Of a stretch of 64,000 bases of DNA, positions 8,736 through 54,296 are shown piece by piece. The position numbers and the translations under genes were made by a program. The stretch covers positions 18,452,979 to 18,516,978 of the forward strand of contig NC_133778.1 in assembly GCF_003597395.2 (NCBI RefSeq). The letters run 5' to 3'. Below the pieces are notes generated by a model, which worked only from the letters and a program-made list of their open reading frames with translations, was not told the origin of the DNA and ran no database searches. Positions within the stretch are counted from its first letter, which is position 1. Each line of letters begins with the position of its first letter. Source of the stretch: Chelonoidis abingdonii (Eukaryota > Chordata > Testudines > Testudinidae).

Positions 8736-10632
8736 CACACAGTACACCTCGCACAGCTACACCTCACACCGCTACGCCCCGCACCCCACACAGATCCCAC
8801 ACAGCTACACCTCACAACCTGCACAGCTACAGCCCGCACAGCTACACCGCAAACAGCTACACCCTGCACCCCTCACAGATCCCACACAGCTATACCCCTA
8901 ACCCTGCACAGCTACACCTCACACCCCACACAGCTACACCCCACACAGCTNCACCCTGCAGCACAGATCCCACACAGCTACACCTCACACCCCNCACAGN
9001 TACANCCCGCACAGCTACACCGCAAACAGCTACACCCTGCACCCCTCACAGATTCCACACAGCTACGCCTCACACCCCGCACAGCTACAGCCCGCACAGC
9101 TACACCGCAAACAGCTACACCCTGCACCCCTCACAGATTCCACACAGCTATACCCCTCACCCTGCACAGCTACACCTCACACCCCACACAGCTACACCCC
9201 GCACCCCACACAGATCCCACACAGTACACCTCACACCCCGCACAGCTACACCCCACACAGATCACACACAGTACACCTCACACCCTGCACAGCTACACTC
9301 GGCAGCACAGATCACACACAGTACACCTCACACCCTGCACAGCTACACTCTGCAGCACAGATCACACACAGTACACCTCACACCCTGCACAGCTACACTC
9401 TGCAGCACAGATCACACACAGCTACACCTCACATACCTACACCCGGCAGCACAGATGATACACAGCTACACCTCACCGCCCGCACATCTACACCCCACAC
9501 AGTTCATCTCACACCCCACACAGCTACACCCCGCAGCACAGATCATACACAGCTATACATAACATCCTGCAAAGGTACACCCCACAGCACAGATCACACA
9601 CACCTACACCTTACACCTTGCACAACTACACCCCCACACAGATCACACACAGTACATCTCACACCCTGCACAGCTACACCCCACAGCACAGATCACACAC
9701 AGCTACACCCCGCACAGCTACACTGTGCAGCACAGATCATACACAGCTACACCTCACACCCCACACAGCTACACCCTGCAGCACAGATCCCACACAGCTA
9801 CACCTCACACCCTGCACAGAGCCCACACAGCTACACCCCACCCCCGCACATCTACACCCCACACAGATCACACATAGTACACCTCACACCCTGCACAGCT
9901 ACACTCCGCAGCACAGATCACACACAGCTACACCTCACATACCTACACCCCGCAGCACAGATCATACACAGCTACTCCTCACACCCTGCACAGATCCCGC
10001 ACAGCTACACTTCACACCCCGCACAGCTACACCCCACACAGATCACACCGTTATCTCACACCCCACACAGCTACACCCCGCAGCACAGATCATACACAGC
10101 TATACATAACATCCCGCAAAGGTACACCCCACAGCACAGATCACACACAGCTACACCTTACACCTTGCACAACTACACCCCACACAGATCACACACAGTA
10201 CACCTCACACTCTGCACAGCTACACCCCACAGCACAGATCACACACAGCTACACCCTGCACAGCTACACCGTGCAGCACAGATCATACACAGCAACACCT
10301 CACACCCCACAGCTACACCCCGCACAGCTACACCCTGCAGCACAGATCACACACAGCTACGCCTCACACCCTGCACAGCTACACCCCACAGCACAGATCA
10401 CACACACATTTACACCTCACACCCCACAGCTATGCCTCTCACCCCACACCGATCACACACAGCTACATCTCTCAGCTGTACCACACTGCACAGATCACAC
10501 GCAGCTAGACCCTACCACACAGATCACACACAGCTACACCCCACATTCCGCAGTTACATCCCACACAGCTTCACCCCACCTCACAGATCACACACAGCTA
10601 CACATCAAACCTGCACAGCTACATCTCACACC
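8732..10632. repeat. AC-rich minisatellite array next to the PARD3B CpG island
   Basis: About 1.9 kb of imperfect tandem repeats is built from modules such as CACAGCTACACC, TCACACCCTG and GCAGCACAGATCACACA. The plus strand is almost devoid of G outside CAGC, CAGAT and CTGC modules, so the two strands differ strongly in composition. Variant modules alternate in several orders, indicating repeated duplication and shuffling. Four ambiguous bases (8951, 8994, 9000, 9005) fall inside it, which suggests assembly or polymorphism problems. The array begins where the CpG island ends, about 0.7 kb upstream of the PARD3B start. The Thr/His-rich open frames through it have no independent support as genes. 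Confidence 0.95.
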
Positions 10633-24257: not shown

Positions 24258-24265
24258 TCCCTGAA

Positions 24266-24637
24266 CAGGGCTGGCTTTAGGAAGTGCGGTGCCCAATTTA
24301 AACAGTTTCAATGGAGCCCTGGCAGGGATGACTTCAAAAAAAACAACATGTAAAAAAAAAAGTGGGGCTTGTATTCTGAGTCTTTGGCGGCAGTTCGGTG
24401 GTGGGTCCTTCACTTGCTCCAGGTCTTCAGTGGCACTGAAGGACACACTGCCGAAGTGTCGCTGAAGACCCAGAGTAAGCGAAGGACACGCCGCTGAAGT
24501 GCCGCTGAAGACACAAGCACCAACAGGTAAGTAAAGATTAAAAAGGTGCCTATAACACAGGAAGGGTTTCTCCCTGGGCGCGGGGCCCTCTTAGGTGTGG
24601 GGGCTGATTCGGTGGAATAAGCCTAAAACCGGCCCTG
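24266..24637 (+). mobile_element. hAT miniature element, copy 1 (left arm of composite)
   Basis: The left end is CAGGGCTGGCTTTAGG and the right end, reversed, is CAGGGCCGGTTTTAGG. Internally it has the GAAGTGCGG and CCCTGGCAGGGATGACTT words also seen in copy 2 and in the element at 32016-33473. The middle holds GGCGGCA / CGCCGCTGAAGTG blocks typical of the family. It is non-coding. Confidence 0.85.
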
Positions 24638-26015
24638 CCTAAGGGTAGGGCACTTGGAGCTAGGTTCAGGGTTCCTATGCATAGAGTTTCAAGCCCTAGG
24701 GGTACGGTTCCTAAGGGTAGGGTACTTGAAGCTAAAGTTAGGGTTCTTATGGGTGGGGCACTTGGAGCTAGGGTTAGGGTTCCTAAGGGTAGGGCGCCCC
24801 ACCCTAGGCTTAGGGTTCCTATGGGTATGGCACTTGGAGCTCGGGTTATGGTTCCAATGGGTAGGGCTTCCCGCCCTAGGATTAGTGTTCCTTTGGGTAG
24901 GGCACTTGGAGCTAGAGTTAGGGGTCCTATGGGTGGGGCACTTGGAGCTGGGGTTAGGGTTCCTATGGGTAGGTCGCCCCGCCCTATGGTTAGGGTTCAT
25001 ATGAGTAGGGCACTTGGAGCGAGGGTTAGGGTTCCTATGGGTAAGTCACTTGGAGCTAGATTTAGGGTTCCTATAGGTAAGGCTTCCCTCCTAGGGTTAG
25101 GATTCCTATAGGCAGGGCTTCCCGCCCTAGGGTTACGGTTCTTATGCGAAGGGTACTTGGAACAAAGGTTAGGGTTCCTATGGGTAGGGCACTTGGAGTT
25201 AGGGTTAGGGTTCCTATGGGTAGGGCTTCCTGCCCTAAGATTAGTGTTCCTTTGGGTAGGGCACCTGGAGCTCGGGTTAGGGTTCCTATGGGTAGGGCAC
25301 TTGGACCTAGGGTTAGGGATCCTATGGGTAGGGTGACTCACCCTATGGTTACGGTTCCAATGGGTAGGGCACTTGGAGCTAGGGTTAGGGTTCCAATGGG
25401 TAGGGCTTCCCGCCTAGGGTTAGGATTCCTTAGGGTTTGATACTTGGAGCTAGGGTTAGGGTTCCTATAGGGAGGGATTCCGGCCCTAGGGCTAAGGTTG
25501 CTAAAGGTAGGGCAGTTAGAGCTAGAGTTAGGGTACCGATGGGTAGACCGCCCTGCCCTAGGGTTAGGGTTGCGAAGGGTAGGGCACTGGGAGCTAGTGT
25601 TAGAGTTCCCATAGGTAGGGCATTTGGAGTGAGGGTTAGGGTTCCTATAGGTAGGGCACTTGGAGCTAGGGTTAGGGTTCCTAAGGGTAGGGCACTTCGA
25701 GCTAGGGTTAGGGTTCCTATGGGTATGAAGCCCCGCTCTAGGATTAGGGTTCCTAGTGGTAGGGCACTTGGACCTAGGGTTAGGGTTCCTAAGGATATGG
25801 CACTTGGAGTTAGGGTTAGGGATCCTATGGATAGGGCTTCCCGTCCTAGGTTAGGGTAGCTAAGTGTAGGGCACTGGGAGCTAGGGTTAGGGTTTCTTTG
25901 GGTAGGGCTTCCTGCCCTAGGGTTAGCTTTCCTAAGTGTAGGGCACTGGGAGCTACGGTTAGGGTTCCTAAGGGTAGGGCTTCCCGCCCTAGGGTTATGG
26001 TTCCTAAGGGGAGCG
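24638..26015 (+). repeat. 36-bp minisatellite with embedded TTAGGG telomere-like units
   Basis: There are about 38 tandem units of 36 bp, each built on AGGGTTAGGGTTCCTATGGG plus TAGGGC and a 10-base tail. The tail has two main types, ACTTGGAGCT and TTCCCGCCCT, interspersed along the array. The G-rich strand is the plus strand throughout, and GGGTTAGGGTT occurs in most units. Because 36 is a multiple of three, frames stay open for up to 222 codons on either strand; these are not evidence of genes. Confidence 0.95.
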
Positions 26016-26446
26016 CAGGCCTTAGGAAGTGCGGGGCCTAATTCAAACAGTTTTGACAGCGCCCTGGCAGGGATGACTAAAAAAAAAACAAACCACACAC
26101 TTTTTAAAAATTACATGGGGTTTGTATTTATCGGGCGGTGCTCTGAGCCTTTGGCCGTGGGTCTTTCACTCACTCCAGGTCTTTAGCGGCACCGAAGGAC
26201 CTGTTGCTGAAGTGTCGCCGGAGACTCAGAGTAAGTGACGGACCCACCGCTGAAGTGCTGTAGAAGAGCCGAAGAGAGTGAAGGGCCCGCCACTGAAGTG
26301 CCACTGAAGACCCAAAGCGCTGCCGGGTAAGTAAAAATTAAAAAGGCCCCTCCAGCCAGGGAAGGGATTCTCACTGGGCGCGGGTTCCTCTTAGGTGCGG
26401 TGCCCGATTCAATGGAATTGACGGAATAGGCCTACAGCTGGACCTG
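26016..26446 (+). mobile_element. hAT miniature element, copy 2 (right arm of composite)
   Basis: It starts CAGGCCTTAGGAAGTGCGG, a few bases shorter than copy 1 at the terminus, and ends GGCCTACAGCTGGACCTG before the outer duplication. It shares with copy 1 the order GAAGTGCGG, CCCTGGCAGGGATGACT, A-rich run, CTTTGGC, TCGCCG/GAAGTGC blocks, TAAAAAGG and GGCGCGGG, in the same orientation. Divergence between copies is visible by eye, so the duplication is not recent. Confidence 0.82.
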
Positions 26447-26658
26447 TCCCTGAAGGCAGAATTTCATAACATGGCTAAACTGTTGCATGCATTCCCCTCT
26501 TCCCCAACTCTCAGCCCCAGTGATAATAAGTGAAAAGGAAAGAACTCAGCTGGACTGTCAGCTCCTAGGCAGAGTCTGCAGGGCTGGCAGCTGGAAACAA
26601 CATCTTTTTGGCTTCAGAGCTGATCACCTTAGGGTGTAAATCACTGAGAGACAATAAA

Positions 26659-32015: not shown

Positions 32016-33473
32016 CAGGGCCGGCTTTAGGCCAATTCGGCCGATTCCGGGGAATTGCGCCCCGTGCCTAAGAGGGCCCCGCACCCTAGGCACCTTTTTA
32101 ATTTTTTTTTTTTAAACTTACCCCGGTCCCCGGCTGCGGTCTGCTCCATGGTCCCGCTCCTTTGAGTGAGGCGCCGGCGGGAGCGCGGCGTGGCCCCACT
32201 CTCCCAGCTAAAGCTCCAGCCGGGGCGGCCGGGGCTTGTTGCCACGCTCCGGCCGGGAGAGCGGAGTCGCGGGGCTTGCTGCACTCAGGCCGGGGCTCCA
32301 GCCGGGGTGGCGGGGCTTTGCCGCTCTCTGGCCGGGAGAACAGGGTCGCGGGGCTTGCCACACTCGGGCCAGGGCTCCAGCCGGGAGAGCGGGGCAGCGG
32401 GGCTTTGCCACGCTCCGGCCTGGAGAGCGGAGTCATGGAGCTTGCCGTGCTCCAGCCGGAGTGCAGCAAGCCCGGCGGCTCCGGCCAGAGCGCGGCAAGC
32501 CCCGCTCTCCCATCTGGAGCTCCGGCCAGAGCGCGGCAAGCCCCACTCTCCTGTCTGGAGCTCTGGGCCCTTTAAATAGCCCCCAGAGCCCTGGGGCAGT
32601 GAGGGGCTTGGGGGGGAGCTATTTAAAGGGCCCGGGGCTCCAGCTGCCTCTGCCACCCCGGTCCTTTAAATAGCCGCCGGAGCCCCACCTCCATCTTGCA
32701 TTTCCCAGCGCTCCCGCGGCTATTTAAAAGGTCCCCGGGGTAGAAGGGGGTTTGGGGGCTACTTAAAGGGCTGGGGTTCCAGCTGCCTCTGCTGCACCCC
32801 CTGACCTACCCACACCAGTCCGGCCCCCCCGCCTGCAGCCAGCTCTGCACCCCGTGCCCACAGCCAGCCCTGCCAAACCCCTGTCCTTTCTCCAGCCAAC
32901 CCCTGCCACACACCCCTGCAGCCCTGCCCAAAGCCAGGCAGCCCCCCACACACTGCTGCCCGCACCAGCCCTGCACACTCTGCCCAGCCCTCACCCCCTG
33001 CCCTGTCTCCAGTCGACCCCTGCTGCACCCCACTGCCTGAAGCCAGCCAGTCCCGCATCCCTTGTCTCCAACCAGCCCCACATCCCTTGCCCTACCTGCA
33101 GTCAGACCCTACCTCCAGTCAGCCCATGCCCTGCCTCCAGCCAGCCCCATGTCCACTGCTGCCCTGCAGTTTCCAGGGCATTAACCCTGCACAGCTGCTT
33201 CAACGAGGGGGCAAGGAGCAGCTGGGACCAACACATGTGCACACCCCCAGGGAGTGACGGGGATCCACACAAGTGAAACGGTGGTCATTAATAGCCAATC
33301 AACAGCATATATGATGCAATGTATATAATTTTATTATTAATATAGTTATGGAAAGTAAATAATACATGAAAGAAATGAGAGGCTTTTTTTTCCACTTTAT
33401 TTTTAAGTCATCCCTGCCAGGGCCCCACCGAAAATGTTCGAATTGGGCTCTGCACTTCCTAAAACCGGTCCTG
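32016..33473 (-). mobile_element. hAT non-autonomous element with GC-rich repetitive interior
   Basis: The ends are CAGGGCCGGCTTTAGG and, reversed, CAGGACCGGTTTTAGG, flanked by TCTGGATG (32008-32015) and TCTGGGTA (33474-33481), an 8-bp duplication with two mismatches in the last three bases. The reversed right end continues GAAGTGCAGAGCCCAATT, then CCCTGGCAGGGATGACTT, the same words as the left arm of the composite at 24266, so both belong to one family in opposite orientation. The interior is not shared: it has about five imperfect units near 80-90 bp rich in GGCCGGG and GGGGCTTGCC (32215-32560), and a C-rich CCTGCAGCCAGC-type region (32790-33170). Open frames there come from GC content. Confidence 0.82.
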
Positions 33474-37448: not shown

Positions 37449-37697
37449 CAGGGCCATCTCCAGGCACCAGCGCAGCAAGCAGGTGCTTGGGGTGGCCAAC
37501 GGAAAGGGGCAGCACGTCCAGCTCTTCGGCGGCAATTTGGTGGTGGGTCCCTCAGTTCCTTTCGGAGGGAAGGACTTGCCACCGAATCGCCACTGAAGAA
37601 TGAAGTGGCGGTGGAAGAGCTGCCACCGAAGTGCCGCTGATCGTGGCTTTTTTCCCTCCCCTCGCTTGGAGTGGCAAAAACACTAGAGCTGGCCCTT
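37449..37697. mobile_element. hAT miniature element
   Basis: It starts CAGGGCCATCTCCAGGCAC and ends AGAGCTGGCCCTT. The flanks CACTGGAT (37441-37448) and CACTGAGT (37698-37705) form an 8-bp duplication with two mismatches. The interior has GGCGGCAATTTGG and GCCACCGAAGTGCCG words. Non-coding. Confidence 0.78.
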
Positions 37698-53833: not shown

Positions 53834-54296
53834 CAGGGCCGGTGCAACCATTTAGGTGAACTAGGCGGTTGCCTAGGGCGCCAAGATTTGGGGGCGCCAA
53901 AAAGTGGCACCCCCCAAAAATTTTTTAAATGGTTGCAGCTGCTGCTGCTGGAGGGGCTGAGCTGCCGGCGGCAGCAGCTGCCTGCAGCCGGCAGCCCAAG
54001 GTGTCCCCCGGGTCAGGGCGCTGCCGGTCAGCGCGCCCCCGGGGTCAGGGAGCTGCCGCCACGACCCAGCAGCCCCGGGTGCCCCCCCTCTGGGGTCAGG
54101 GTGCCCCCCCCCGGTCAGGGAGCCGCCCAGGGCTGGCACTTTCCCTGGGGTGCCAGCATTAGGGGTGGGGGGTGGCATTTTGCCGGGGGGGGCAGCAGGC
54201 GGCTCCGGTGGAGGTCCACCGGAGCCGCGAGACCCGCGTGTGGGGCGGCGAAATGGCCCGGAGCCTAGGGCGCCAGAAATCCTAGCACCGGTCCTG
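53834..54296. mobile_element. hAT miniature element with perfect target duplication
   Basis: The ends CAGGGCCGGTGCAACCATTT and, reversed, CAGGACCGGTGCTAGGATTT are flanked by a perfect 8-bp TAGATGGA (53826-53833 and 54297-54304). GCCTAGGGCGCCA blocks lie just inside both ends. The middle is GC-rich with GGGTCAGGG units. The perfect duplication suggests a fairly recent insertion. Open frames on both strands are compositional. Confidence 0.93.

Follow-up and report, generated by a model that had tools for sequence, protein, structure and literature searches.

A TTAGGG-bearing 36-bp satellite between two direct hAT MITEs as a probable member of a macrotransposon family

Structure of the MITE-satellite-MITE locus

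The window (the whole stretch of 64,000 nucleotides that was analysed, located on C10) contains a satellite array placed between two copies of one hAT MITE. In the 5' to 3' direction, the locus consists of the 8-mer TCCCTGAA (24258 to 24265), the left MITE M1 (372 bp; 24266 to 24637, plus strand), a TTAGGG-bearing array of 36-bp units (24638 to 26010, plus strand), the right MITE M2 (436 bp; 26011 to 26446, plus strand), and a second TCCCTGAA (26447 to 26454). The outer 8-mers, to which no strand applies, form the target-site duplication (T1) and match at 8/8 positions, as the initial annotation had claimed; its coordinates of the array between two direct hAT MITEs were also right. The sharing of an 8-mer between random pairs of window positions occurred in 123 of 2,000,000 draws.

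M1 starts with CAGGGCTGGCTTTAGG and its 3' end reads CAGGGCCGGTTTTAGG as reverse complement. These termini are alike at 14/16 positions and represent short terminal inverted repeats, the ends of the family being CAGGGCCGGCTTTAGG. The 3' end of M2 reads CAGGTCCAGCTGTAGG as reverse complement, and its 5' tip is decayed. The alignment of M1 and M2 identified them as copies of one MITE pointing the same way, with 281 of 372 aligned sites identical and 91 different, so that a direct-orientation pair brackets other DNA as in a macrotransposon. M2 also contains a 43-bp internal tandem duplication (26234 to 26317), one copy of which is absent in 17 of 57 aligned MITEs.

The array comprises 38 units (23 of type A, 15 of type B) plus 8 bp, in agreement with the earlier count of about 38, and contains TTAGGG 28 times in 1,373 bp. 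The description of the array as telomere-like was appropriate for the motif and not beyond it, since the units are degenerate, 36 bp long, and located inside chromosomes; the plain TTAGGG units of an interstitial telomeric repeat are not what this array is built of. The B units contain a TAGGGC-TTCCC-GCCCTA inverted repeat resembling the MITE tips CAGGGC/GCCCTG, for which chance and common origin are both possible.

The first 8 bp of the array (24638 to 24645) and its last 8 bp (26003 to 26010) are both CCTAAGGG (T2; no strand), which is the inner flank of both MITEs. Because both MITEs meet the array at this 8-mer, M1 is flanked by T1/T2 and M2 by T2/T1. Of the 1,337 positions at which the array could end, only 5 yield CCTAAGGG. 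The initial annotation had placed the outer borders correctly and overlooked this inner pair, and its joint between the array and M2 needed to be moved 5 bp further left, to an M2 start at 26011 (GAGCGCAGGCCTTAGG, 12/16 to the end consensus). Since the first bases of M2 have decayed, the window sequence alone leaves this start undecided; position 26011 is supported by ten right joints elsewhere (L065-L074). Immediately ahead of the MITE, L066, L067, L068, L070, and L071 have exactly CCTAAGGG, while L065, L069, L072, and L074 have nearly this 8-mer, and a deletion cuts it in L073. These joints led us to discard an explanation in which the start of M2 is missing and microhomology accounts for the inner CCTAAGGG.

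Pfam searches with 10 window ORFs and an Rfam search of the whole window gave no match, and a protein search with the frame spanning the array-M2 joint gave none at E 0.001 among 7,997 scored candidates. The array-unit pattern had no match in viral and bacterial contigs. The joined outer flanks, used as an empty-site query against the window, matched only themselves.

Composite loci share common joints and carry locus-specific outer duplications

The assembly to which the window belongs (2.256 Gb; 3,849 contigs) was searched with the 5' part of the MITE. The best 40 of 2,539 first-look candidates were scored, one of which was the window itself. The 39 other copies, which are the best matches to M1 and no random sample, were fetched with long flanks (22 copies; L009 holds two) or as 1.1-kb pieces (17 copies). 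As a result, the array was found to adjoin 12/39 copies at the CCTAAGGG joint, with small deletions at the joint in two of the 12. These copies are located in L009 (both of its copies), L014, L017, L030, L033, L034, L035, L038, L040, L042, and L045. The other 27 copies are solo, with no array within the piece fetched.

According to excerpts of PMC11008031, an 8-bp target-site duplication is the rule for the hAT superfamily. Consistent with this, 20/27 solo copies have their own 8-bp duplication matching at 7/8 positions or better (14/18 and 6/9 in two sets), as the hAT assignment of the family demands. None of the 12 array-flanked copies, two of which have truncated ends, has two flanks of its own that match at 6/8 or more. 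MITEs having their own duplication and no array were one half of what the initial annotation had named as evidence against its composite unit, and such copies do exist; they are expected because the MITE is mobile.

Left joints at one common array phase were found in 12 cases (window, L009, L017, L047, L048, L049, L053, and L055-L059), and right joints at that same phase in 18 (window, L009, L014, L050-L054, and L065-L074), with small deletions at the joints of L048, L050, L052, and L073. Joints detected by joint queries are biased to the T2 joint; the 12 detected by MITE similarity are unbiased and agree with them. When up to two mismatches were allowed, the 19-bp left joint gave 100 matches genome-wide versus 4 for the reversed control, a number that is not a count of composites because many matches are plainly other sequences. 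One of the left-joint matches (C15:32698829) lies 2.2 kb ahead of, and in line with, an array of the same satellite at C15:32701821-32704119, which has 146-bp periods over more than 2 kb and was first read as an array alone.

Both outer ends were read at seven loci. Apart from the window locus (TCCCTGAA/TCCCTGAA, 8/8), the outer 8-mers are CTGAACAC/CTGAACAC (8/8) in L053 on C18, where both MITEs are present, TCTAGGGC/TCTGGGCC (6/8) in L009 on C21, TCCATACG/CCTATACG (6/8) in L055+L054 on C2, ACTCCCAC/CCCCTCAC (5/8) in L058+L065 on C1, CCGCTGAT/CTGCTGAT (7/8) in L056 on C22, where the right MITE is cut to the last 157 consensus positions, and CCAGTAGG/CCAGTAGG (8/8) in L049 on C10, where the right MITE is reduced to its tip. 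The C2 locus, which is 27.8 kb from end to end, was sampled in five pieces, is interrupted by non-array DNA, and is taken as one unit by inference; the C1 locus spans 5.2 kb, of which 1.6 kb is unread. The 8-mers differ between the seven loci and agree within a locus at 48/56 positions, a value reached by the true pairing only among 5,040 pairings. The 42 wrong pairs gave a mean of 2.6 and a maximum of 5, and the weakest locus (L058/L065) equals this maximum, which counts against unit movement. Over the seven loci, each insertion has its own outer duplication and none between, as in a macrotransposon.

The initial annotation had proposed, as proof that the unit moved as a whole, a search for other loci having both joints and different outer 8-bp duplications. 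The search was positive, most clearly for L053, followed by the five further loci above. The locus-specific outer duplications and the common joints thus support its proposal of a composite unit that moved as one piece.

The right tip of L049 (CTTGCCGACCCTG) may derive from M2 or from a modified B unit, and it may also be an array end that served as a transposon end. The latter was not retained as a general explanation, because the loci with one MITE do not all preserve the same last array base. Three composites have foreign DNA within the satellite (oriented positions 2686-3540 in L009, 923-1687 in L048, and 1863-3487 in L050). These interrupters are related, the L009 and L048 pieces being 78-83% alike and the L050 pieces 70-85%, partly in opposite orientation.

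An array with a single MITE in the fetched stretch was found at 13 loci. The outer 8-mer on the kept side was sought near the opposite end of the array and compared with 5,000 shuffles. The matches summed to 70, which was reached by 0/5,000 shuffles. The outer 8-mer was present at 6 or 7 of 8 positions at the bare array end of L017, L047, L048, L057, and L014, where the array stops within CCTAAGGG or at its end. Against unit movement, the match was 4 or 5 of 8, with a background of 4.5, at 8/13 loci (L051, L052, L066, L069, L071, L072, L073, and L074), and in L051 the array starts at another phase with no duplication. Five loci were left unclassed, namely L050, disrupted by a further insertion, and L059, L067, L068, and L070, in which the array exceeds the stretch. 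The five loci with the better matches are read as having probably lost one MITE by its own two ends, as after excision. In the excerpts of PMC9910405, a 28-kb maize macrotransposon was excised, leaving a modified 8-bp duplication. The loci with one MITE suggest how a carrier can leave and thereby hide the origin of an array.

Proposed origin and spread of the composite units

Because the three-part unit recurs with a different insertion mark each time, the MITE pair appears to have carried the block between places. In our judgement, the window locus probably belongs to a natural family of hAT macrotransposons whose mobile unit was MITE-satellite-MITE. In the proposed course of events, a 440-bp hAT MITE would have entered the 36-bp satellite at CCTAAGGG, and an exchange within the array would have given M-T2-array-T2-M. 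A hAT transposase, presumably supplied in trans, would then have acted on the MITE pair. The best supported step is the movement of the whole unit through the pairing of its two outermost ends, 5' on the left MITE and 3' on the right. Each new site would be marked by its own outer 8-bp duplication, which is TCCCTGAA in the window. In some copies, one MITE may later have been excised through its own pair of ends, so that T1 became joined to T2 and a few bases were lost. Array length and unit order probably changed afterwards, and the window copy is likely to have decayed.

The same flanks can arise by recombination. A satellite circle carrying T2-M-T2 might recombine with a solo T1-M-T1 in a Campbell-type event and give T1-M-T2-array-T2-M-T1 with no transposition of the unit. 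This would explain the mismatched flanks on each MITE, which are reciprocal across the pair, and the T1/T2 order of the composites is the order expected from ectopic recombination, which counts against unit movement. In excerpts of PMC2775673, exchanged duplications mark ectopic recombination in Galileo; those elements likewise occur as two copies with reciprocal T1/T2 flanks, but in opposite orientation and with an inversion, whereas the copies here are in direct orientation with a block between. The composite MITEs are, in addition, as mixed as the solos, with no left or right clade (label shuffles reached the observed value in 536 and 1,051 of 2,000). However, a solo subfamily with 184T and 185G accounts for 5/27 solos and 0/30 composite MITEs (Fisher p 0.019, uncorrected; one of several markers), and composites are frequent (12/39 of the best-matching copies), so that single crossovers would need to recur. 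Unit movement is preferred because of this frequency and because the MITEs of composites may differ from a random selection of solos, and the Campbell-type event is considered unlikely.

Two other explanations leave the block in place. One MITE inserted at TCCCTGAA might have been duplicated, with the array growing between the copies. Outside CpG-type sites, M1 and M2 diverge by 0.064 for transitions and 0.049 for transversions, which is indeed close to the divergence among the A units (0.059 and 0.057), as if all were of one age. Growth in place is nevertheless very improbable, since the same joints and array occur at other loci with other outer duplications, L053 being just such a case as the initial annotation had named as proof of unit movement, and window units of the same type are as alike far apart as near. 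Alternatively, a satellite already in place might have received two separate MITE insertions at a favoured target, which would account for the same T2 at the joints. Such insertions predict array on both sides of each MITE and matching flanks of its own, but at the loci read the outer sides consist of non-array DNA with a common outer duplication (48/56 over the seven loci); we give this explanation hardly any credence.

The mean distance to the consensus is 9.1-9.2% for composite MITEs and 7.0% for solos, with overlapping ranges. The relationships among the MITEs are star-like, and their use for tracing left or right ancestry was abandoned as uninformative. The 43-bp deletion is scattered over 6/12 left, 4/18 right, and 7/27 solo copies, and with no left or right clades a single master composite is not demonstrated. 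When whole arrays were aligned by unit index, unit position was shared only beside the MITEs, which also speaks against unit movement, and the excess on the left side is partly the T2 base itself. These results suit a history of early formation and spread of the composite, followed by separate decay and array turnover.

A further reading, which we hold tentatively and with somewhat less than even confidence, is that the TTAGGG-containing satellite was dispersed chiefly as cargo of hAT composites, up to the interrupted 27.8-kb unit on C2 (6/8; sampled only). Transposase acting on paired MITE ends would then have seeded arrays along the chromosomes, and MITEs leaving later would have made some arrays look independent.

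Ac/Ds macrotransposons of maize are reportedly the subject of Huang and Dooner (2008). In excerpts of PMC3260210 and PMC9910405, the outer ends of two nearby Ac/Ds elements move the DNA between them, with cargo of up to about 100 kb reported; the present loci are similar in their neighbouring hAT elements, probable movement of cargo by outer ends, and 8-bp duplication, but maize has an active Ac and the events were seen in genetic stocks. Here, in contrast, non-coding MITEs form the two ends, a satellite makes up the cargo, and the units occupy many loci of an animal-sized genome. Bacterial composite transposons resemble the present unit in having cargo enclosed by a pair of similar elements and a single outer duplication. 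Their insertion sequences encode a transposase, for which M1 (372 bp) and M2 (436 bp) are too short, and the unit differs from bacterial composites in this respect. The combination of a non-autonomous element and a tandem array is also seen in hAT MITEs with internal tandem repeats from Atlantic cod (PMC12368964, excerpts) and in a bacterial MITE with a minisatellite (PMC4596501). In those cases the repeats are internal to one element, whereas the array here is enclosed by two whole elements that have their inner ends as well.

In the literature surveyed, which covered composite transposons and macrotransposition as well as tandem repeats in MITEs and MITE-flanked satellites, partly as excerpts, the examples of hAT-pair movement of intervening DNA come from maize, and no dispersed animal hAT family with satellite cargo was found, although subscription papers and repeat databases could list one. 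Macrotransposition itself is known from maize Ac/Ds. If true, a family that occurs naturally at multiple loci and has a fixed satellite cargo would mean that lasting element families can arise from this reaction, and it would provide one route by which satellite arrays, including telomere-like ones, come to form single blocks inside chromosomes.

Other repeats in the window

The window was scanned for the terminal repeat of the MITE family with an 8-bp duplication, allowing up to 6/16 mismatches in the repeat, up to two in the duplication, and a span below 4 kb. Four places were detected in the 64 kb, and the duplication was perfect at two of them, the composite and a 463-bp hAT-like stretch at 53834-54296 (TAGATGGA). 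A hAT relative of 1,458 bp (32016-33473, minus strand) has the ends of M1 and M2, outer 8-mers matching at 6/8, and GC-rich internal tandem repeats of its own. Another hAT-like stretch of 249 bp (37449-37697), with outer 8-mers also matching at 6/8, has part of its interior in common with M1. Positions 8738-10618 are occupied by a large array of degenerate CACAGCTACACCCC repeats, in which several periods are nested.
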